DNA from: Ulota crispa
Lineage: Eukaryota; Streptophyta; Bryopsida; Orthotrichales; Orthotrichaceae
Length of the DNA stretch: 64,000 nt
Direction: 5' to 3'
NCBI GenBank assembly: GCA_963920765.1
Contig: OY987242.1
Coordinates: 39,793,264 to 39,857,263, forward strand
The notes beneath the pieces are model-generated. The model ran no database searches and had not been told where the DNA came from. It saw only the letters and a program-made list of their open reading frames with translations. Both the position numbers and the translations under genes were made by a program. The first letter of the stretch is position 1. Every line of letters starts with the position of its first letter. This document shows positions 10,679 to 60,002 of this stretch, in pieces.

Positions 10679-11416
10679 AAATTAAGTCTGGAGAACAGGC
10701 AGGGGTATGTAATTCTAAAGTCACATGCACACTATCAAGCGGGCTTTCCTGTGAGACACTTAAGGAGTTTCAAGCCTCAAGGAAAACTGGGTTTCTGTAA
10801 AGCGATTTTCTTATAAAAATGGAAGAAATTTCATGCAAAACCATAATTTGTTGTGAGAAAATCGAAAAGTTTTGGGTACCTAGCAAGCTTTGCAAAAGTG
10901 CAAGCACGGTGTCTCTTGTTGGAGAAAACAAGAAATATGACCCCTGTTGAATGAGAAAAGTCAGAGAAAGACAAATTAAGCCTTGAAAACCACCTGTGAA
11001 AAATTAGATTTTTTTTGCAAAGATGGACGGAAAAAAAAAAAACAGTTGTAGGCTGCGGAATATATTGAGAAACACCCTATTATTCAAATTGACTCTAATT
11101 TCATTCCAAATAATTGAAAGTCTCTCCCGTGCAAAAAAGTTTTGTAGGTGATGCCAACGATTCCAAGTTGTCATCTCTCTGAAGAGCTTTCATCATGGGT
11201 GAGCAGATGTGACACATGAATTTCAGTAAAAGCAGACCCCGAAATTTTGATTTTGAGGAAACCTGAGTTCGTGTTAAATACTGCATTCTCTTCTTCATGG
11301 ATAGTTTTAGAGAAGCGAGAAAAACACAGCATTTTGCAAAAAAGGGACTGTGTTTTCTCTTCTTTTTCTTAACCAAAGTTTGTTGACTCTATTTTTCATG
11401 CAATTTTTGTTTTTTA
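10679..11416. other. Spacer between the MITE and the GT47 gene
   Basis: AT-rich, no recognisable gene. The part just below 11417 is the 3' flank of the minus-strand GT47 gene. Nothing else noted. Confidence 0.4.
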
Positions 11417-16475: not shown

Positions 16476-18127
16476 CCCGTAAAGGTTGCCCCATTGGGAG
16501 ACAAATGGGATTTTGGGCATGTACTTACAGCTAAACTATTTTGTGTGATTTTCTAAAAATTTTATAGAAGATGGGGAATTCAAAAATCTGAGTGGGCATA
16601 TAGTTTTTATTTTATTTTGGCATTTATTGAAGAAGTTATGCATGCATTTTTGGAAAACGGGGAGGGCTGGTAGTCCAGGTAGCCCAAAAAACTTCTTTAA
16701 AAATTGCATCTTGTTAAAATAAAATTTTGGAAAATTGGTTCTTGAGATCTACATACATATGGGAAGCATTGAATTTATCAATTTTGATTAATGAGATGAA
16801 AGTTATGAGAAGTTTTAGTTTGTGGATAGATATGGTTTTAAGAGACTCCATACAGATGTGCAAACCAAAACTTCTTATAATTTTCATCCCATTAACCCCT
16901 AAATCCCTGAGTGTCCTCTCGGGGGACAAATGGGATTTTAGGCAAGTACCTAAGGCCTCAATTTTTGTCTTGAATTTTTGAAACTTTTTTTGAAGCTAGA
17001 AAAACACATTAGCTTTAGGGGAATATAACTTTTACTCTGATCTATGCCCAAAAGCAAAAGTTATGCCTAGATAAGCAAAAATTTATGGAGATTGGGCAGA
17101 AAGTTTTTTTTTACAATAGCTTTTTTTTTAATTTTTTCTTCTCATAGGTTATAGCATTTTCTACATTTGAAGCTTTGATTCATTCCATTTGGACTAGTTA
17201 TGAGAAAGTTATGGACAATCTTGTTATTTGGGCACCTTAAGCATCTTCTTGAAAAAATAACTTATAAACATTATTTTTGAATGCAATTTTAACATTTTCT
17301 CAAAAAAATTGTTGGAAAGGGTGAAGTTTGCTTTCTAGAACAATCTCACCATTGGGATTATTGCATTTCAATTCCATTGCACGGTTATTAACAATTTAAG
17401 TTTTTGTTCAGTCTTAGACCTTCTTCTACCTAATATTTTTTTTAAGAATGAAAATTAAGTATTTTTTGTTTTGGTTTTTTTCCAAAGATTCTCTACTCAA
17501 TTTTCTACCATGGAAAAATAAACCCCAAAACTCTGTGGTGCAAAAATTTTAAGTTAAAAAAGTTCAAAGTCAAATAATCTAATCATGCAAGGTGCAGAAA
17601 AGTTTATTTTTGACACTTTAAATGCAAACATCTTGCAATCTATGCGGACAAATTTTTTGAATATTTGTTTCCACATTCTTATATTGGTCTAGTACAAGAT
17701 CCTATGGTTGATATGCAAAAAGACTAGTATTCAAACTTTTTTACTCTTTGCAATAGAAATGGCAGTTTTGAGTGTCTTTTGACAAAATAAAGGCCCCAGG
17801 GATTTAGGGGTTAATCAATATTAAATTATTCAAAGATTTCCAAGTACAAATATAAATCTAAGAAACCAATTTTTGTGTTTTTATTTTTTTAAATGCACAT
17901 TTCTTAAAAGTTTTTTGAGCTACCAAGGCTGCCCAATAAACAATTTTTGGTTATCATACAATGATTTTTGAACCATGCGGTCAAAAGTTATGCAAATTGT
18001 TGAACCTTAAAACTCCTCCTTGAACACATCATGAGTGAAAATTTCAAAAAAAAAATGAAAATTTCATTTGTAATGAGCTGCCCAAAATCACTATATTGCC
18101 AAAAAATGTTATTTGGGCCTTTAGGGG
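16476..18127. mobile_element. TTAA-type long-arm foldback element interrupted by a second TTAA element
   Basis: The left end (ACCCGTAAAGG, diverged) and right end (CCTTTAGGGG, then TTAA at 18128-18131) match ends of the 28828-29779 family. The left part (16476-16891) and the right part (17815-18127) are inverted repeats of each other over much of their length: GGTAGCCCAAAAAACTT against AAGTTTTTTGAGCTACC, and TTTTGATTAA against TTAATCAATA at the centre. This makes it a long-arm foldback, piggyBac-like by target site. It is split near its centre by the element at 16896-17810. Confidence 0.65.
16896..17810. mobile_element. 915-bp TTAA element nested in the 16476-18127 element
   Basis: Ends CCCCTAAATCCCTG and CAGGGATTTAGGGG, exact inverted repeats of 14 bp, with a clean TTAA duplication (16892-16895 and 17811-17814). 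The left interior (GGGGGACAAATGGGATTTTA) and right interior (GGCAGTTTTGAGTGTCTTTT) match the element at 28828-29779. No transposase frame. Confidence 0.85.
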
Positions 18128-25591: not shown

Positions 25592-25877
25592 TAGTATCAT
25601 CAAAATCTTGGAAACAAAGGTTTTCAGTTTTTTGAGTCCCAGTGTGAAACACCCTTTATTGACCCTGCCTCGATTTCTAACATCAGAAATGTAAGTGTGA
25701 ATGGGTCAAGGAAGAGATGGTAAATTGACCAACTACTAATTCTTGATACTCAATTAGAATATACTTTGAAAGGTGACTTACGGATTATTCATGTCACTAC
25801 GGACTTTTAACATCCGGGTACATTTAGAGATCTCCCCATGTTTTGCATATATATTCCAATTTGCTTACATCGTTTAA

Positions 25878-26102
25878 CCCTAAACGTCCCATGCGTATAT
25901 TAGATATGTTGTTGTATATTTGACATTTGCTACCAATAAGAAATTTTAACTTGGGATCTCAAATAGCTCACTAGAATTGCGTTTATCTATATTTCAACTT
26001 CTTTGTTAATCTCAAATATAGTAGAGGTGTGGATCCATTTCAAATACAAGAAAAATATCTTGTATTGCACTTGTCACAAAGGGCCTTTTTGAAGTTTAAG
26101 GG
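25878..26102 (+). mobile_element. TTAA-flanked 225-bp MITE (copy 1), piggyBac-like
   Basis: Flanked by TTAA (25874-25877, 26103-26106). Starts CCCTAAACGTCCC and ends with TTTAAGG. The interior (CTACCAATAAGAAATTTTAA, GGGATCTCAAATAGCTCACT, GTAGAGGTGTGGATCCATTT) recurs at 36994, 47314 and 52676. Length nearly constant (225-226 bp) in three of the four copies. Confidence 0.85.
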
Positions 26103-26142
26103 TTAATGTTTTGCAAGTTTTTTGTTATGTTTTACAACTTAA

Positions 26143-35596: not shown

Positions 35597-36993
35597 GGTG
35601 ATTGAGTCAAATCAAACAACCACAATTAGTACTGATTGAGCCCATTCTGTGGAGGAGCTTTGCACACAACTCTTGCTGCGCAATCGCCATCACTGAGTGC
35701 AGCAACATCGACAGAGAAGTAGAGAATGGTTTCTAAGTGGTGTGGATTTTCGATGCATTATTTGACAGAGCTAAATAATCTTCGGAAAACACTGGCTTTG
35801 ACGCAGTCTGTGGTTAGCAACTCTGTCGATAACGCTTAACAACGCCTAACAAGACAAGCTGGTCCACTGGGGCTCTTGATTCTGTGGGAATTTTCGGTCC
35901 TAGAGCTGCATTCTATCTGCGTACATTACTGTAGTGTGGGCTACTTTAATATAAGTTAGTCTGAGCAAATATTCTTTTCGCTGCAACAGTCGTTCTGCAT
36001 CTACTGTACCTACTGCAAATCTAATATCTTTATGAAAGTGATATTCGCACTCCTGTGCTTCAAGAACCTTTCAAGTTGTTTTGGAATCTGTATTAGGGTG
36101 CTAAGTTTTGCTTCATAGGCTACCTCCCTATGGTAGCACTCTGAACCCATCTAGTATGGGCCTCTTTGAGTCAGCAAACAAATTCTGCCTTCTGCTCAAT
36201 TGTCCAGCATCCAGTTGCATGCTACTTAGAAATGACTGATTTGATTACAGTAGTACTCACACTCATGTAGTGTATTGATGGGTAAGGACGCTCCTTATTT
36301 ATTGGCTTTGGACATGAGGAAGGAGGCTTTGTATCAAGAGAAGTTACCTTGAGGAAGTTTGAAGAAGTTTGAGGAAGTTTGAGTAGATAGTAAGATAATG
36401 CTGCACGGAGAGAGCCTCTCGTAGCTTAGTTACTTGTGTTAAAACTCACATTAAGTAGACAAGAAGAATGTAGTGCTAAGCTTGGCCTTCCTCACTATTT
36501 CTTCAAACCTACACATTCATGTTTGTTTAGAGATTGTTACTCTATTTAAATTCTTGTGTTTGATTTCATCAACCATCTTCCATCTATCCACTTAGAATCT
36601 CATGATTTGATGACAACAATATTCAAGCTTACGTTTTATTTTATTTTATGGCAACTAGGACGTCACACCTTATTTCAATTCCGAAACCAAGGCTTGGTGA
36701 CAGTATATACCTTGTTGTGTTCCTTATACCATACTGATAGATAGGACATTCAACTTAATCCATCTCCACTTGAATCCCTCAATTTTTTTTAATCATTCAA
36801 GATTAAAAACTGAGAATACTGTTATTGAGATTGCATCGAAAGATTAATTTCAACATTACATAACCAAAATACTTCCAAAGTCCCTCAGATACAAGCCGGA
36901 AAAATAGGGTCCACTTTTAGTTTAGTCTTTGTTGTTGACTCTATAAACTAGCATGATTTGCTGACATAACAACCAATTTTGGATAAAGTTTAA
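35597..36993. other. Upstream region of the pectate lyase and spacer
   Basis: 35597-35950 is GC-richer and is the promoter/5' UTR candidate. A short GAAGTTTGA-type direct repeat lies near 36350-36384. Otherwise AT-rich, nothing recognised. Confidence 0.35.
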
Positions 36994-37219
36994 CCCTTAA
37001 ACGTCCATAGGGAACCGTATGTACACTGACATATAATTGTCATTTGTTACCGATAAGAAATTTGAATTTGGGATCTCAAGTAGCTCACTAGAATCGTATT
37101 GATCTATTCTCCAACTTCTTTGTTGGTTTCAAATGTAGTAGAGGTGTGGATCGATTCCAAATACAAGAAAAATACCCCATATTGTACTAATCGCAAAGGG
37201 CTTCTCAAACGTTCAAGGG
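36994..37219 (+). mobile_element. TTAA-flanked 226-bp MITE (copy 2), piggyBac-like
   Basis: TTAA at 36990-36993 and 37220-37223; starts CCCTTAAACGTCC and ends CGTTCAAGGG, which pair. Colinear with 25878-26102. Confidence 0.88.
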
Positions 37220-37699
37220 TTAAATTTACTAGCGATCTCCACTATCTTGCAAAAGAATGATATGGTTTTGGTCATCCAAAGCACACGTAGAGATCTTCTT
37301 GTGCTTATTGCGAGGCTTATTGTAAGAGATTTGTCAATGGGCTTTCGAGTGAAAATACTTCAAAAGTCCAATATTAACACCCATGAAGAATCTGAGGATT
37401 TGGGATAGAGATGTTCTTGATATTTTACAACACCCAAACCAAGAAGAATGTAGCTTAGCTGCTTCTGAGAACTGATGGAAGCAGGGTGGCCTTTCGGTGG
37501 AATGGATGGACCTATCAGTCAGGTAGATTATGAACTGGAAACAGCAGCGGTGCAGTACAAGTTGATCATAAGTTGAGGGCCTTTTCACACGATGAGTGTA
37601 GGTCATTTTGGAGACCAAAAAGGTCCCAGTGTTCACTTTTTTTTATTTGATTTTATGAAAATGGTATCAAGGCAATATTTGGGGAGAATTGGTGAACTC

Positions 37700-38033
37700 C
37701 TAACCTCCGAGGCTGCCTAAAAACGTCCACTGCATACCCAAAAAAAATTGTAAAATGGAAAAAGGTTGTTTTGCATTTGATTTTTTTGGAAGTGATCATA
37801 AACACACGGTCCATCATGGAAGGCAAAAAATTAATTCATTAGATGTACTCATATTTTTAGGCAGCCTAAATTGTGAAAAGATTTAAAGACACGGTGTTAG
37901 GTCCCATGCTACCCTCCTTGCAATTTTCATGAGGGCATCGTGCATAGTTGATTTTTGCAACTTCTAGAAACACTATTACAATGAATGGGCACTAGCTAAA
38001 CCACTATAGAATTATGTCAAACACTATAAAGGG
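37700..38033 (-). mobile_element. Degraded relative of the 40445/40790 TTAA family
   Basis: Read on the minus strand it matches the elements at 40445-40785 and 40790-41153 (GATGCCCTCATGAAAATTGC, GCATGGGACCTAACACCGTG, TTCCATGATGGACC). The ends are eroded; the right end keeps AAAGGGGTTGA. Limits are approximate. Confidence 0.55.
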
Positions 38034-38128: not shown

Positions 38129-39461
38129 AGTTGAAATTTGAAACCAGTAGATCAAAACCTGTTTAATTATGTTAAAAAAACTAAATATAATATGGTATGA
38201 TATAAATATAGAAAAATACCATATGCGTGCCTGTGAAAAGCCTATTGAAAATGGAAAAAACTAGAAATTGTAGGACTTCCCCTCTAAACGTTGCTCCATG
38301 GCTTCTACTTTAAGAGCCAAATTTCTGAAATATAATTTAATATTTGAAAAACAATAAATGATACGGTCTTCATTCCAGAAAACCCGGATTTACTCAAAAT
38401 GAAAGACCAATTCATGGCTTGCAAAGCCACTGTCAAATATTATTAAAATATAGTTCTTTAAACTAATTTAAATGTTTTTAAATAGACAATAACGTAGAAT
38501 AGAATGACTACTAAAATCCCTTTCTTTATCAATCTTCTTCTAATTTTTTTAAGGATTACACTGACACCCTCTACTTTTTGGCAAAAAAGGCCTTCAGACT
38601 AGTGTTTGGAATGTTTTTGAGTTTTACTAGCCAAATTCTAATAATTCTCGCTTTCAACCAATTTATCTTGTGTATGTATCAGATATTGAATACAATACAA
38701 GCAGTGTACCCTAATATCATTGGGCTTTAATTCAAATATTAATTGAAAAATTCTATAGTACACCAAAAGTCATGATTATGGTATCATTTAAAAGATAATC
38801 AAGTTAAGGTTTTGTATCAAGTTCCAAATTCCTAAATGAGTGAAGTATAAGTTAGTTATCAAGGTTTCAATGAGGTGAGGTCAAGGTTTTGCTCAAACTT
38901 GAAATTGTCCTATTGTCACTTCCTTAGAGATTTTCACATGGGTTTTGATTGCCATACATGATTGTATTTTGTCATTTTTCATCTTCAGACTTCTTCTTCC
39001 ATTCCTTGGCCATTGTGGTCATTCATATGTGCTAACTTTATATGTCAAATTAATGTCTTCATAGCTAATACGCTACATCTTTTGCAAATTTTGGTCAAAT
39101 GAAAAAAAAAAACTATTTAACTAGCAAAAGACTCTAAGACCTTTCTTATGATACTTGTAAACTTGAATTTGAAACTAAATCCTAAAAGATATGAATTTTT
39201 GAAGATAGAGAAGTGATAATAGGGGCGGAATGATAATAGGGTAAACTACCTGTATACTATAATTATATAATTTTGAAAAAAAACGCCAAATTTTATTTTA
39301 TTAACACAAATTTCAACCGGTTTTGTTGATATTTGGATCTCGCCAATCATTATCTTAGATATAAGAGGTATGATCCACTATTGTATTCATATTATAAATA
39401 ATACTTGGGAGTTGGGATTGCCCTTGAAACCATTTCGACTCGTATTTGGGTTGAAGCAACT
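38127..39461. other. AT-rich spacer
   Basis: No gene or repeat pair seen. Confidence 0.4.
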
Positions 39462-39599
39462 CCAAGTTTTGACAATCTCCCAAGTTTAGATAACCTCCGA
39501 TGTTTTGATAACCTCCAAGTTTTGATAACTTCCAAGTTTTGATAACCTCCGATGTTTTGATAACCTCCAAGTTTTGATAACTTCCAAGTTTTGATAACC
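39462..39599. repeat. Minisatellite of 18-bp units with higher-order order
   Basis: Variants of CCAAGTTTTGATAACTT and CCGATGTTTTGATAACCT in tandem. The three-unit order (CCGATG, CCAAG...ACTT, CCAAG...ACC) repeats, showing a higher-order period of about 54 bp. On the minus strand it reads as a run of EVIKT-type repeats; I consider that open frame a by-product. Confidence 0.8.
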
Positions 39600-39795
39600 T
39601 TGACTCGTTTTGTAAAGCGGCCCTAACTTAATGCAGAATGTGCCAACAATCACCTCATGGTCCGCTGCAAGTACCTGACAGGCAGAGACTAAACTTACCT
39701 CTGACATGTTTTCACCTGAATGACCAAGACAACAACAGTGAGGACGGCGAAAATAAGCTTTGTGAACACCGACCAAGCTGTGGCCTTTTTCTTAA

Positions 39796-40440
39796 CCCCT
39801 AAATGCCCAAGCCCTATCTGAGCTTCTTGGACTTCTCATGAAACTGATCAATCAATCAGCCTTTTCAAAAATTTCATCTAATTTTTTTTCAATTGTAGCT
39901 GTACAAACTCAAACTAAACATGTTATAGATTACATGGAAAATGAAAACACAACAATATCACTTATAGTTTGAAAGATTGTAATGTTTGAACATGAGGGTG
40001 TTAAAACTGCAAAAGTGACTTAAAGTCTTCTAATTCTCATTTCACATGTCAAATCTAAAAAGTTGGTCACCAAAAAAATATGTGGTTTAAGGTCATTTCA
40101 TGTTTAACTCTAATCAATTTACAATTTTTAAAATCTACTCCTACATTTTTTTTAAATGGATTTCAAATGTGGATTTTTCTCCAAGCTCTAGTGTATTTGA
40201 GGCTCATTTTCAAGATCTTCCAACACTAGAAAACTCAAGATTGCATTGGACACCCTTGTACAAAATCTTGAGTAGAAAAATCATCAACTTTCATTTTTAA
40301 AATCAAATTTTTGGTGTTGAAAGCAGACTTCAGAAAAAACTAATATTGAAAAAAAATACTGAAAATAATGACTTGATAAGGTTTTATTCATCTTCAAAGT
40401 TTTATAAAGACCCAAATCTGGTTGCTTGGGCATTTAGGGG
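39796..40440 (+). mobile_element. 645-bp TTAA-flanked element, first of four end to end
   Basis: TTAA at 39792-39795 and 40441-40444. Ends CCCCTAAATGCCCAAGC and GCTTGGGCATTTAGGGG are exact 17-bp inverted repeats. The interior matches 41158-41805 in inverted orientation (GTGTTAAAACTG, ACATGTCAAAT, GAGGCTCATTTTCAAG). Confidence 0.9.
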
Positions 40441-40444
40441 TTAA

Positions 40445-40785
40445 TCCTTAAACGCCGGGCTGGTCATAGTGACTAGCCTGACTATAGTTGTTATAGTTCC
40501 CGCCATGTAAGATTGCTCCATAAAGTTGCAAAAGTCAACAGTGCATGATCCCCTCACAAAAATTGCAAGAAGGGCAGCATGGGACCTAACATTGTGTCTT
40601 TGAATCTTCTCACAATTTTGGTTACTTAAAAATATGAGTGGATTTGGTGAGGTTGTTTTTTGCCATCCATGATGGACCATATGTTTATAATCACTTTTGA
40701 AAAAGAATCGGATGAAAATAACTTGAATTCTATGTACGAGAGGGTTTTTTCTAAACCTGCAGACAAAAATCGTCTACCTCAGGGT
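40445..40785 (+). mobile_element. 341-bp TTAA-flanked element, second of four
   Basis: Uses TTAA 40441-40444, shared with the preceding element, and TTAA 40786-40789, shared with the next. Starts TCCTTAAACGCCGGGC and ends GTCTACCTCAGGGT. Colinear with the next element (AAGTCAACAGTGCATG, AATTGCAAGAAGGGCAGC). Confidence 0.8.
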
Positions 40786-40789
40786 TTAA

Positions 40790-41153
40790 CCCTTAAAGGA
40801 CGGATGGATCACCGTGGCTTGCCCTACCTATAGCAGTCTATAGTGTTTTGCACATGGGTACCAGTAGTATTGCTTCAAAAATTTGGAAAAGTCAACAGTG
40901 CATGGTGCCCTCTTGAAAATTGCAAGAAGGGCAGCTTGGAAGCTAACACCATGTTTTTGAATCTTATCACAATTTGAGTTACAAAAAAAAAAAATGCATC
41001 TCAAGAGGTAATTTTTTGTCTTCCATGATGATTCATGTGTTTATGGCCACTTTCGAAAAAATCAAATGAAAAACGACTGTTTTTTTAATCACATAATCTT
41101 TTTTTAGAGCCACAAGACGTTTTACGTGCTCTTTGACGTATAGGGGTTAAGGG
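40790..41153 (+). mobile_element. 364-bp TTAA-flanked element, third of four
   Basis: TTAA at 40786-40789 and 41154-41157. Starts CCCTTAAAGGACGG; ends GGGGTTAAGGG. An extra internal TTAA at 41147-41150 makes the exact right boundary ambiguous by 7 bases. Same family as 40445-40785 and as the eroded copy at 37700. Confidence 0.8.
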
Positions 41154-41157
41154 TTAA

Positions 41158-41805
41158 TCCCAAAAGAACCCTGAGGACAGAATGTGTCCTTGACCAATTT
41201 TCAAAGTTAAATAAAATTTTACCAAATTACTATTTATAGTAGTTTATTTTTTTTGAACAATTCTTTTTGAAGTTTAGTTTTAGCTTTAACAATCCAATTA
41301 TGCAAACAATTGATTATGATTTTTCTATTCAAGATTTTGTGTACAGCTATCCATTGCAATCTTGAATTTATGTAGTGTTGAGGGCTCTTGGGAATGAGCC
41401 TCAAGTACACTATATCTTTGAGAAAAAATCACATTAGAAATTCATTTTAAAAATTTGTAGAGTATATTTTGAGAAGTCATAAATTGATTGGGGTTATGCA
41501 TGTTAGGCCCTTTAACCTCATATTTTTTTGGTAGCCAACTTTTTAAATTTGACATGTGAAAAGAAGGTTGAAAGACTTCAAATCACTTTCACAGTTTTAA
41601 CACCCTCATGATCAAACATTATAATCTTTCAATTCATAAGAGATATTGTTGTGTTTCCTTTTCTAATGTAATCTCTAACATGTCTAATTTGATTTTATAC
41701 GGTTACAATTCAAAAAGAATTGATACAACTTATCAAAATGTTGACTTTTTGTTCAAATTAGAGCAAATTCCTAGAAGCTCAGGAATTTCTAGGGTCATTC
41801 TGGGG
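41158..41805 (-). mobile_element. 648-bp TTAA-flanked element, fourth of four, inverted copy of the first
   Basis: TTAA at 41154-41157 and 41806-41809. Ends TCCCAAAAGAACCCT and AGGGTCATTCTGGGG. On the minus strand it is colinear with 39796-40440 with moderate divergence, including the GTGTTAAAACTGTGAAAGTG segment. Confidence 0.82.
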
Positions 41806-42856
41806 TTAATGGAGGTTTTATTATAGTTCTTGGAAAGACGGGCCGGTGACTGTGCCCTTATGCCATGTAATGATCCTATGACCGTAGGGTTGCACTCGAG
41901 CGTAATCTACACATATAATGATTAGAAGTGGTATGGTGACTATGGTCCGGAAATTGCTGATAAAAGTGCTCTAAGGGCCAACTTTCACGTTGCATTAGAA
42001 ATTTAGAATTGGTCACCGTAATCATTGCGTTACAACTTTAGAAAACTTGGATCCCAAGAATTTGTGTTTTTTTTTTGCAAGAAATTTGCCTAAACACTTT
42101 TTTCAATTTCCAATACAACTGTTTTCAAGCATGTTTCTATGCACGGCTCTGTACTTCCTTTGTTTTTTGTTTGATTCTTGGATCAAGTTGGCCCAAAGAT
42201 GATATATTACATTACATGAAAGTGAAAGGGAAAATTTAACTTCAAGGATAAAATGAGTTTTGCTGGTGAGAGAAAGACACTTATAGTGTTGTCATTTGGA
42301 TGTCATTTTCAGGTGTATTCATTTATCATTATTTATTCCTAATGATTAGTATTGTTACCAATAAAATTGTGTAATAGTGATGTTTTCTAGTGGTCCACAT
42401 CTACTTTAGTATTGTAAATATTAACCATATATAGTAGGTGTGATAGAATAGTCGAAAAGAGGTGGTACATACATCAATTCCCTTTGATAAAATGACAGTG
42501 TTCCATTAAAATGGCGCACTGATTTTAGACGAGAGAACCCAAAACTATGCTAAGATTTTCCTAAACCAAATATTGCCCATGCACTAGTAATATCGGCACT
42601 CTTTTACTATTGTTTGCGGTATAAAAAGGAGAAAATAAACAACAACATATAAAAAATCCTCCAGCGAGGTGGATTGTTCACCTCTACCATTGTAGAACAT
42701 TCCTTCCAGAGATGAAATGGTGACTTGTTTGTCTTACGACAACGCTCAAAAATCAATTAGACAATTGTCTGGCCTCGTTTTACCTTTAAATTGTAAAATG
42801 AATGTGAATTTTATACTCCAACAGCCAATTTCCATGTCATTCTGTTAAATCCTTAA
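41806..42856. other. Spacer
   Basis: AT-rich; no gene or repeat pair recognised. Confidence 0.4.
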
Positions 42857-52325: not shown

Positions 52326-52675
52326 GCGTTTGTATCAAAAATGGTCTCCCAGTTGTTAAATGGACTTTCAAGTTAACTCAGTCATTTCTTTAGAAATTTG
52401 AGATGATTATGAAGATTAGATTTGGGACCACTGGTTGATTACTGGCTTAGTGCTCAGTGCTCACATCTAAGTGGCTGGAACGAACCTAGATTCAGAGCAT
52501 GTACAGAAGGTGAACAGTGCAAACTGGGCTCTGCAGCTTCAGCACTTGCAACTTGCATGCTGATTGATTAATATTGAAGTTCATGCAAGATTGCAGAGCG
52601 ATTGATTAGTGTTTATCAAAATGTATATGACTATTCTCACTTTTGCATGTTATCCTTTCAGAGATCTTTCTTTAA

Positions 52676-52934
52676 CCCTTAAATGTCCCATGGGTAATTG
52701 GGCATAGTGGATATGTTGTCGTGTAATTGGCATTTGCTACCAACAAGAAGTTTTAGTTTTAATTTGAGATCTCAAATAGCTCAATATATTCTTATTGATC
52801 TACATTCCAACTTCTTTGTTGATCTCATATGTACTTTGTTGATCTCATATGTAGTGAAAGTGTGGATCCATTTCAAATACAAGAAAAACACCTTGTATTG
52901 TATTGGTCGCAAATGGGCTTTCAAATGTTAAGGG
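52676..52934 (+). mobile_element. TTAA-flanked 259-bp MITE (copy 4), piggyBac-like
   Basis: TTAA at 52672-52675 and 52935-52938; starts CCCTTAAATGTCCCATGGG and ends AATGTTAAGGG. Colinear with 25878-26102; longer because TTTGTTGATCTCATATGTA is duplicated inside. Confidence 0.88.
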
Positions 52935-53453
52935 TTAAAAGGCAATTTTTTGGGAAAATTTTGCCTGGTAAATTTTCTACCAGTCTCTTTGAAGCATTCT
53001 TAAACAAAATAGGTGTTTTGTCTAAGGTATATTAACTGCTTATGGACTATTCATGTAGTCCTAGATTGTTCCTTATGGACTTTGGGTAGTCCATAAGTAT
53101 TTAAGTACGTCATGTGTACATAACTAGTTGACTAAAGTATTTGGTGTGTACAGTATTTTGAAAAGCGTTCAGTTGGATATCAATCTTGTTGGACACAAGC
53201 TTGAGGGTTATAACTTATAAGCCATAACCATTTTAAAATATATCGATGCTTGGATTGCTTGCCTCAGTAGATCATATGGCGTTGTGTAAATTCAATTTTT
53301 GGACAAACTTGAATTTTGACAATCGTGTGGGAATAATAAACTTGATACTACATGGCTATCTTGGATATTTGGGATAGTCAAAGAAGATGTTTAGTACATA
53401 AAACAATCATTTCTAAGTAACTAAAGTTTAGTAGTTCAATGAAGTTTAGCCTA

Positions 53454-58600: not shown

Positions 58601-60002
58601 AGGTAATGCTTCACTCATCAGGCATTATAAGGAGAAAAAAGGTTTTCCTGTGAGGCTTTGCTCAGTGCCCCTACCTCATGTTTCCTATAATAACCTTACC
58701 ATCTAGTCAAGCACTGCCCCATACTAAATGCTGACCCACACCGTAAAAGTTGCTTGAACAAAATCCTTTGCATTTTCAATTGCCTTATGCTTCTGAACGT
58801 AATCAAAAATTATCAAGTGGCATCACATTGTGTGATGTCACTCTTGCGAGCACATGGCAATACTTACTTCAAACAACATTAACCCAAATTAAGGGCCTCT
58901 CACACAAACAATCTCACGTTTACGCCACTAGTTACTTGGGCTCTGCACTTGTTCTCAATGGATGAAACGGGCCTTACCCTACACATAAAATGCTGGAACC
59001 TATATCCGATTGATTAAAGTTACGAACTTGCTTTTGGAGAACCCCACCCAATAATTATTGCTCTCAAAAAAGCGTCCTCATGAGTAATCTCAAATTTCAT
59101 TTCATTATGAGCTGAAGGGGCACGAAAATGTTGCTAAATGTGGCATATTTTAAAGCCAAACTGCGATGTGTACAATTTTGTAAGTATTTCAAAAGCTTGG
59201 TAGAAATGCTGCTAAATAATGCAACAGTTGTAGACACTCATCTTCATTCCTAAGCACCCCCCAACATACCCAAATGAATTGTCGTGCACAGATTGTGTAC
59301 CCGTTCATTCTCCGACTTCAATAGACATCGACCAAATCTGAGGGGAACTCAAAGCGTTCTTGCTGAAATGTCGATTTTTCCCCAACATGGCTGCTCCAGA
59401 AAGAATCATGTCCTACAAAAGCACCAGCATAAACCGCCATCATCTCTCAAAATTCGTCACTCACACATTAGTGTACGGAAAACCCTAAAAACATGTTCAT
59501 CCTGTTTAACAGTAAGAACAAAAAAGCAAAAGGGGAGAGATGGTGAGTGGGAGCGTGCCAGGGTCGGTGATCTGCGCAGAGCATTTAGGCCCGCTATCCC
59601 TCCACTACCCAGAGCGGGAAGTGACGCTGCTCGGTTGCCCGCCTCACGCGATACCCTCCTCTGTAACGCCATACCAACCCCGCCCTCCGGCGGAATCGAA
59701 ACGGCGACTCCGAGTTTGGAGCGGACTGGCCTTCGACATGTCAGCGCAGGCCGAGCCCTGGAGTCCCATTTCCACATCTCCCTTCCCTCGCTCGAGTCAC
59801 AGGCGGTCGCTACTCCGCCCAGATGTCATCATCAGTTCGATTTGAGATATATGTACACAGCCTGCTCTACGACACCGATCCATATGGCGTTTGCCTCCCG
59901 CAGTAATTAAGTATCGCTATTTATGTCAAAAGCTTGGAATTGATCAACCGCTGCCCTAAGCATACGGTGATGTGAGTTTCAAAGTAGAACATGTATCACA
60001 TA
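58601..60002. other. Spacer with a GC-rich island
   Basis: Spacer, except for the island at 59535-59850 listed separately. Nothing else recognised between 58601 and 59280. Confidence 0.4.
59535..59850. other. GC-rich open island, possible unrecognised exon
   Basis: About 315 bases far more GC-rich than their surroundings, with long open frames: + 59540-59845 (starts MVSGSVPGSVICAEHLGPLS), + 59284-59910, and - 59457-59777. AAACCCTAA (telo-box) lies at 59480-59488, about 50 bases upstream of the + ATG. GAGATG/GTGAGT at 59536-59545 would also be a strong splice donor. On the minus strand MALQRRVSREAGNRAASLP could be an organelle transit peptide. I cannot tell which strand, if any, is coding. 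Confidence 0.3.

Follow-up and report, generated by a model that had tools for sequence, protein, structure and literature searches.

The block at positions 39792-41809 of the window (the whole 64,000-nucleotide stretch of Ulota crispa DNA analysed here) comprises three abutting elements and a fourth nested in the terminal repeat (TIR) of the second, E1-E2[E3]-E4. With a probability of about 0.9, it represents four short non-autonomous piggyBac-type elements gathered one after another by separate insertions. The features of the block are as follows, in window coordinates.

39792-39795, no strand: TTAA, left target-site copy of E1 (sequence; TTAA at 32 of 35 ends of other E1 copies)
39796-40440, + strand: E1, 645-bp apparently non-autonomous element with a perfect 17-bp TIR, CCCCTAAATGCCCAAGC (copies elsewhere 87.5-92% identical)
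40441-40444, no strand: TTAA common to E1 and E2 (sequence)
40445-40785, + strand: E2, main part (E2-family right ends, 15 of 17 of which continue TTTAAGGG)
40445-40789 plus 41151-41153, + strand: E2 minus E3, 348 bp (E2-family right ends)
40786-40789, no strand: inner TTAA of the E2 right TIR, serving as left target-site copy of E3 (sequence; E2 relatives)
40790-41146, + strand: E3, 357 bp, nested in the E2 right TIR and oriented as E2 (same end base in other E3 copies)
41147-41150, no strand: TTAA, right target-site copy of E3 (sequence; other E3 copies)
41151-41153, + strand: GGG, the last three bases of E2, severed by E3 (E2-family right ends)
41154-41157, no strand: TTAA common to E2 and E4 (sequence)
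41158-41805, + strand: E4, 648-bp element, distant inverted relative of E1 (75.5%; copies elsewhere)
41806-41809, no strand: TTAA, right target-site copy of E4 (sequence)

The initial annotation had described four elements joined end to end by shared TTAAs. The block is real, but it had been parsed wrongly, since E3 lies inside the terminus of E2. E1 (39796-40440) and E4 (41158-41805) had been delimited correctly, whereas E3 stops at 41146 and not at 41153, its earlier coordinates having extended over one target-site copy plus the terminal GGG of E2. A single TTAA does separate E1 from E2 (40441-40444), but between E3 and E4 two TTAAs surround GGG, and this third junction reads GGGG-TTAA(41147-41150)-GGG-TTAA(41154-41157)-TCCC. 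The TTAA at 40786-40789, previously taken as the outer flank of E2, is instead the inner TTAA of its right TIR and is intact in 15 of 17 relatives. The outer pair, E1 and E4, was confirmed as inverted relatives (75.5% over 584 bp); the inner pair, E2 and E3, are direct relatives as proposed, yet only over a 207-bp core (77.8%).

The right boundary of E3 was read in 21 other copies, eight of which had been chosen for a match to 363-364, one (L047) for an adjacent second match and one (L038) from the whole-block search, while the other 11 (L048-L058) were taken purely by rank. GGG-TTAA was absent after the right end in 20 of these 21 copies; the one copy that has it, L044, lies nested within another terminus. 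In the genome search with E3, 24 of 39 other full-length places aligned exactly to position 361 (357 bases plus TTAA); among the remainder, one stopped at 360, six reached 362, two reached 363 and six reached 364, and seven of the eight matches extending to 363 or 364 had no GGG-TTAA there. Because the other E3 copies lack GGG-TTAA and their matches mostly stop at 361, the end of E3 was placed at 41146.

The right end of E2 was examined in 17 family members drawn from 40 scored of 3,874 candidates, 16 of them matching to 345, which is the query end and the end of the inner TTAA, and one to 343; two copies matching to 344 were left out. This choice favours an intact inner TTAA, but not what comes after it. 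The results showed that 15 of the 17 right ends run ...[A/G]TTTAAGGG unbroken, 14 into TTAA and one (L071) into TTAG. The two exceptions are L070, in which GTTTGAGGG is followed directly by TTAA, and L068, in which an E4-like end begins exactly at the inner TTAA. Read from outside, the E2 right end including GGG is CCCTTAAAC, which resembles the left end of the same element, TCCTTAAAC. In the window, E3 is positioned exactly between ...GGTTTAA and GGG-TTAA, and because the E2 relatives supply GGG at the exact site of E3, the block was resolved as E1-E2[E3]-E4.

Similar nesting was detected at other loci. A terminus split by an E3 copy, with both halves visible, was found at L040, L042, L043 (one TTAA mutated), L044 and L047. 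E1 occupies an inner TTAA at L022, where that site lies four bases into the terminus; E1 and E4, directly joined, together occupy the inner TTAA of an E3-like element at L037; and at L018 an E3-like element adjoins an E2-like one, with GGG-TTAA on its outside. No such nesting was seen among the 11 E3 loci taken by rank (L048-L058). The nested cases establish that nesting occurs and say nothing on its frequency, because 9 of the 21 E3 loci had been picked for a long match or an adjacent match. At L021 an E1 copy sits at a TTAA within another E1 copy, and the interrupted copy is continuous on both sides, which provides an empty site.

A script-based reading of 66 ends from E1, E3 and E4 copies placed a TTAA among the five bases immediately outside the element at 62 of them. 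By rule, 8 of these 66 ends abut another end; L057 is a doubtful case, the L028 junction enters twice, once from each side, and a mutated abutment at L016 is excluded. Direct abutment was seen by eye at 4 of the 17 E2 right ends (L063, L065, L070 and L071, the last with a mutated TTAA), a count that leaves out L075, where the next end lies 7 nt farther out. Overall, 12 of 83 ends abut, and at that rate a run of four would begin at about 0.3% of elements. Because of this rate and the very many elements, runs of four should recur in the genome.

End-to-end joining was then compared with chance over the whole genome (274.8 Mb, 157 contigs). Exact TTAACCCCTAAANG ends numbered 25,176 (12,603 + 12,573) against 10 (7 + 3) for the reversed-pattern control, so that these termini exceed chance. 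Perfect shared-TTAA junctions numbered 188 genome-wide, about twice the 84-96 given by a uniform expectation at a TTAA density of 6.9 or 6.0 per kb; the genome contains roughly 1.7-1.9 million such sites. Since the elements are unevenly spread, the same end pair parted by other sequence served as a fairer control. Such pairs numbered 44 at 1-30 nt (29 kept), 40 at 31-60 nt and 52 at 61-90 nt, after 15 pairs at exactly 3 nt, the inner-TTAA distance, had been set aside from the first bin. The 121 kept pairs over 89 spacings correspond to 1.56-1.79% per TTAA and to 197-226 expected junctions, and the 188 observed give a ratio of 0.83-0.95 with a baseline sampling error of about 9%. The local control is not flat, with 1.0, 1.3 and 1.7 kept pairs per spacing at 1-30, 31-60 and 61-90 nt, respectively, and a few control pairs visibly hold further terminus remnants. 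The nearest bin alone (29 pairs) predicts about 145 junctions, a ratio of about 1.3 with a sampling error of about 19%. Just outside 75 exact ends in the DNA sample examined, TTAA density was 7.4 per kb over 90 nt, 3-nt sites included, and with this value the ratio is about 1.0. As a result, no clear excess of end-to-end joining was found after allowing for local density, and a special joining mechanism is not needed. The earlier premise, that spacers usually remain after random insertion, misleads in this case, as the flanking TTAA is attacked at about the local rate.

In the proposed course of events, the elements would move by cut and paste, insert at TTAA and duplicate it. E2 would have landed first, and some time later E3 would have entered the inner TTAA of the E2 right terminal repeat (TTAA-CCC-TTAA read inward). 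E1 and E4 would have inserted, in either order and probably after E2, into the TTAAs to its left and right. The idea of repeated insertion into TTAAs at existing ends is supported for E1, E2 and E4; E3 went into a TTAA within the terminus of E2. E2 looks like the oldest member, because its best other matches are 80-85% identical (40 scored of 3,874 candidates), against leave-one-out majority identities of 96.3%, 95.3% and 92.2% for the window copies of E4, E1 and E3, respectively, although the measure for E2 differs from that for the other three and each family was scored in part.

The initial annotation had also proposed that the block moved as a composite transposon, in which the outer inverted relatives E1 and E4 would be long ends carrying E2 and E3 as a unit. 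Besides the inverted relationship itself, the E1 right end faces the E4 left end at three places (L028 3822-5108, L037 499-1774 and window 39796-41805), and at two of these, L028 and L037, the pair is directly joined in the same order and orientation as in the window, with different flanks. The E4 copies of L028 and L037 also group together, on long branches with support of 0.887. This recurrence counts against serial insertion, but it is possibly due to chance; the two direct cases are few, and the places scored in the whole-block search may favour loci holding both E1 and E4. The remaining evidence runs the other way. E1 and E4 are only 75.5% alike, and so not close copies of one family, whereas E4 copies are about 91-92% identical at L010, L011, L016 and L025 (84-88% at L028 and L037); because each is 75.5% identical to the other and about 91-92% to its own copies elsewhere, E1 and E4 were assigned to separate families. 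In the E1 tree, the window, L028 and L037 copies do not make up an exclusive cluster: the window copy pairs with L015, that of L037 with L014 and L022, and that of L028 with L027. The window E4 joins the single copy L010. E2 is apparently older than E1 and E4, which argues against a late-acquired passenger. When the 2,018-bp block was searched for as a whole, 40 of 9,554 candidates were scored, and the sole complete match among them was the block at its own position; the members were mostly single in the 20 loci examined, and the same multi-part unit with its own target duplication was not seen at several places. Composite movement is thus highly improbable. An E1-E4 dimer later opened by E2 was likewise considered and is disfavoured by the lower identity of E2 to its relatives and by the E1 and E4 trees.

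Two further explanations concern the ends themselves. GGG-TTAA between E3 and E4 could be the three-base excision footprint of a lost element in the Tc1/mariner style. In the DNA sample examined, spacing 3 accounted for 50 TTAA pairs, compared with 9-29 at each spacing of 2 or 4-20, and 15 (counted by eye) of the 44 end pairs 1-30 nt apart are exactly 3 nt apart. On visual inspection, however, most of the TTAA-NNN-TTAA excess came from the termini themselves, which read TTAA-CCC-TTAA, and nesting in the inner TTAA yields identical letters; the missing GGG is supplied exactly by E2-family right ends, and both halves of a split terminus are visible at L040, L042, L044 and L047. The footprint was accordingly rejected, and there is very little chance that it is correct. 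Alternatively, the elements could favour their own ends, at the inner TTAA three bases in or at the outer TTAA, so that chains outgrow chance. For inner TTAAs, 232 exact ends were counted at 11,293 TTAACCCTTAA sites, which is 1.15-1.31 times the expectation from the full local control and about 1.8 times that from the nearest bin alone. E3 in inner TTAAs at L040, L042, L043, L044 and L047, E1 at L022, the E1-E4 pair at L037 and the directly abutting neighbour at 4 of 17 E2-family right ends point in the same direction. Against this, no clear excess is apparent at the outer junctions (a ratio of 0.83-0.95 against the full control and about 1.3 against the nearest bin alone); relative to the full control, the inner excess stays inside roughly two standard errors; and 9 of the 21 E3 loci had been picked for their match end or an adjacent match, with 0 of 11 nested among those taken by rank alone (L048-L058). 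A mild preference for inner TTAAs is therefore possible, though not established, and own-end targeting as the source of chains is unlikely. It is similarly doubtful that the TTAA-CCC-TTAA inner site acts as a built-in landing pad, by which termini would nest preferentially, chains would grow and the outer TTAA would keep host and passenger movable.

The assignment to the piggyBac type was based on target site, structure and the transposases of the genome; Kolobok and Sola3 are other users of TTAA. The TTAA target-site duplication is present at the 62 of 66 ends and at the L021 empty site, the elements are short (348-648 bp), and no ORF of at least 100 aa overlaps 39792-41809. Of 528 candidates for PF13843 (piggyBac transposase) in this genome, 116 were scored and gave at least 120 matches, and none of 14 control genomes had a match. 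Most of the matches contain in-frame stop codons, and at least 10 of those listed do not. A 436-aa frame at L059 matched PF13843 at 6e-60 and PDB 6x67, which we take to be the piggyBac transposase itself, at 3.6e-20; its second structure match was named piggyBat transposase. The TVDE and TCDN stretches of this frame, which align to TIDE and TCDN of 6x67, presumably hold catalytic aspartates.

Within the 11 transposase loci covered by TIR-pair searches, no transposase-coding element sharing the TIRs of E1-E4 was found; the searches yielded one weak pair, at L029, and no convincing element ends. Right ends near transposase genes were TTAACCCTTTARNGACC-like at L059 (TTAACCCTTTAGCGACC) and L061 (TTGACCCTTTAAGGACC), where they are similar, though not identical, to the E-family TIRs, and TTAACCCTTCAYYGCC-like at L029 and L034 (TTAACCCTTCATTGCC / TTAACCCTTCACCGCC); no left ends were found in the 11 loci. 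TTAACCCTTCACCGCC resembles TTAACCCCTCACCGCC, which is present beside E4 at L011 and beside E3 at L049. When the right ends of L059 and L061 were compared over 80 nt, the score was 26.5 against a random median of -6 and a random maximum of 43.5, perhaps so high owing to repeats in the random set, and their likeness is suggestive only. Near position 5350 of L061, the right end of the transposase-coding locus (TTGACCC..., with a mutated TTAA) is followed directly by the terminus CCCCTAAAGGACC.

The canonical piggyBac terminal motif is CC[C/T]T, as given in PMC2872659. It occurs strictly only at the E3 left end (CCCTT) and at the E2 right end across the split (CCCTT), while the other ends (CCCCT at both E1 ends and the E3 right end, TCCTT at the E2 left end and TCCCA/CCCCA in E4) fall outside it; a CCCCT start is also found in coral family III (PMC2872659). 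The piggyBac attribution made earlier is supported by target site and transposase matches and in part by the termini, with no partner transposase found among the loci searched. Like canonical piggyBac, the block has TTAA targets, CC[C/T]T at some ends and PF13843 transposases in the genome; unlike it, E1-E4 encode no transposase, and no autonomous partner with the same TIRs was found in the 11 loci. Taken together, E1-E4 look like non-autonomous piggyBac-type elements, and a piggyBac transposase of this genome would have moved them.

The closest described system is the coral CMITE, a group of non-coding piggyBac-type MITEs with TTAA target duplication that are found in tandem, with left termini such as CCCTTTCCC, CCCTTTAAGCCC and CCCCTCAGTG, in a genome that also contains piggyBac-like transposons (PMC2872659). 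E1-E4 share with it the lack of coding capacity, the TTAA duplication, similar left termini, piggyBac in the genome and tandem copies. In contrast, CMITEs are about 100 bp long and their arrays consist of highly similar repeats ascribed to replication slippage (PMC2872659), whereas the block joins different or diverged families through separate insertions, one of them within a terminus, and its host is a plant. Linear arrays of unrelated short plant elements are also formed by SaTar, a non-autonomous Mu-like group of guayule and rice; these are Mu-like, microsatellite-associated and described as uniformly non-nested (PMC5907723), unlike the TTAA-targeted and nested elements of the block. Among the matches listed from the open-licence literature, no report of land-plant MITEs of piggyBac type was found, which is not proof of absence. 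piggyBac has been reported as isolated from plants (PMC10813416) and is mentioned once in a fern paper (PMC6890710) and six times in a plant review (PMC10794571). PMC10619864 was discarded as a source, both of its matches being the word piggybacking, and TTAA and piggyBac are absent from the main text, as searched, of a survey of MITEs in 207 plant genomes (PMC12550479).

Elsewhere in the window, elements that are probably TTAA-terminal, their ends matching or approaching the CCC[C/T]TAAA type, lie at 16892-17814, 25874-26106, 36990-37223 and 52672-52938, and lone ends of the same kind lie near 18125, 27036, 29777 and 42853. A further E2/E3-like core, about 77-81% identical, is present at 37759-37979 (- strand), and a 17/52-bp tandem array at 39460-39600 ends some 190 bases left of the block. 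The window also contains a Plant_SRP RNA gene (59536-59823, - strand, 157.5 bits) and pieces of GT47 and pectate-lyase genes, the pectate-lyase match being just under the cut-off; these features mark the genome as that of a plant.

In summary, the four-part block is an ordinary pile-up, and what stands out is the genome-wide abundance of such elements in a plant. Where TTAA-flanked elements are dense, chains with shared TTAAs are to be expected, and the tempting reading as a composite transposon is corrected. This plant genome, where one TTAA-flanked type accounts for 25,176 exact ends and piggyBac transposase for at least 120 matches, is a useful case, in which nesting and abutment can place insertions in order of time and test target preference over many natural events.
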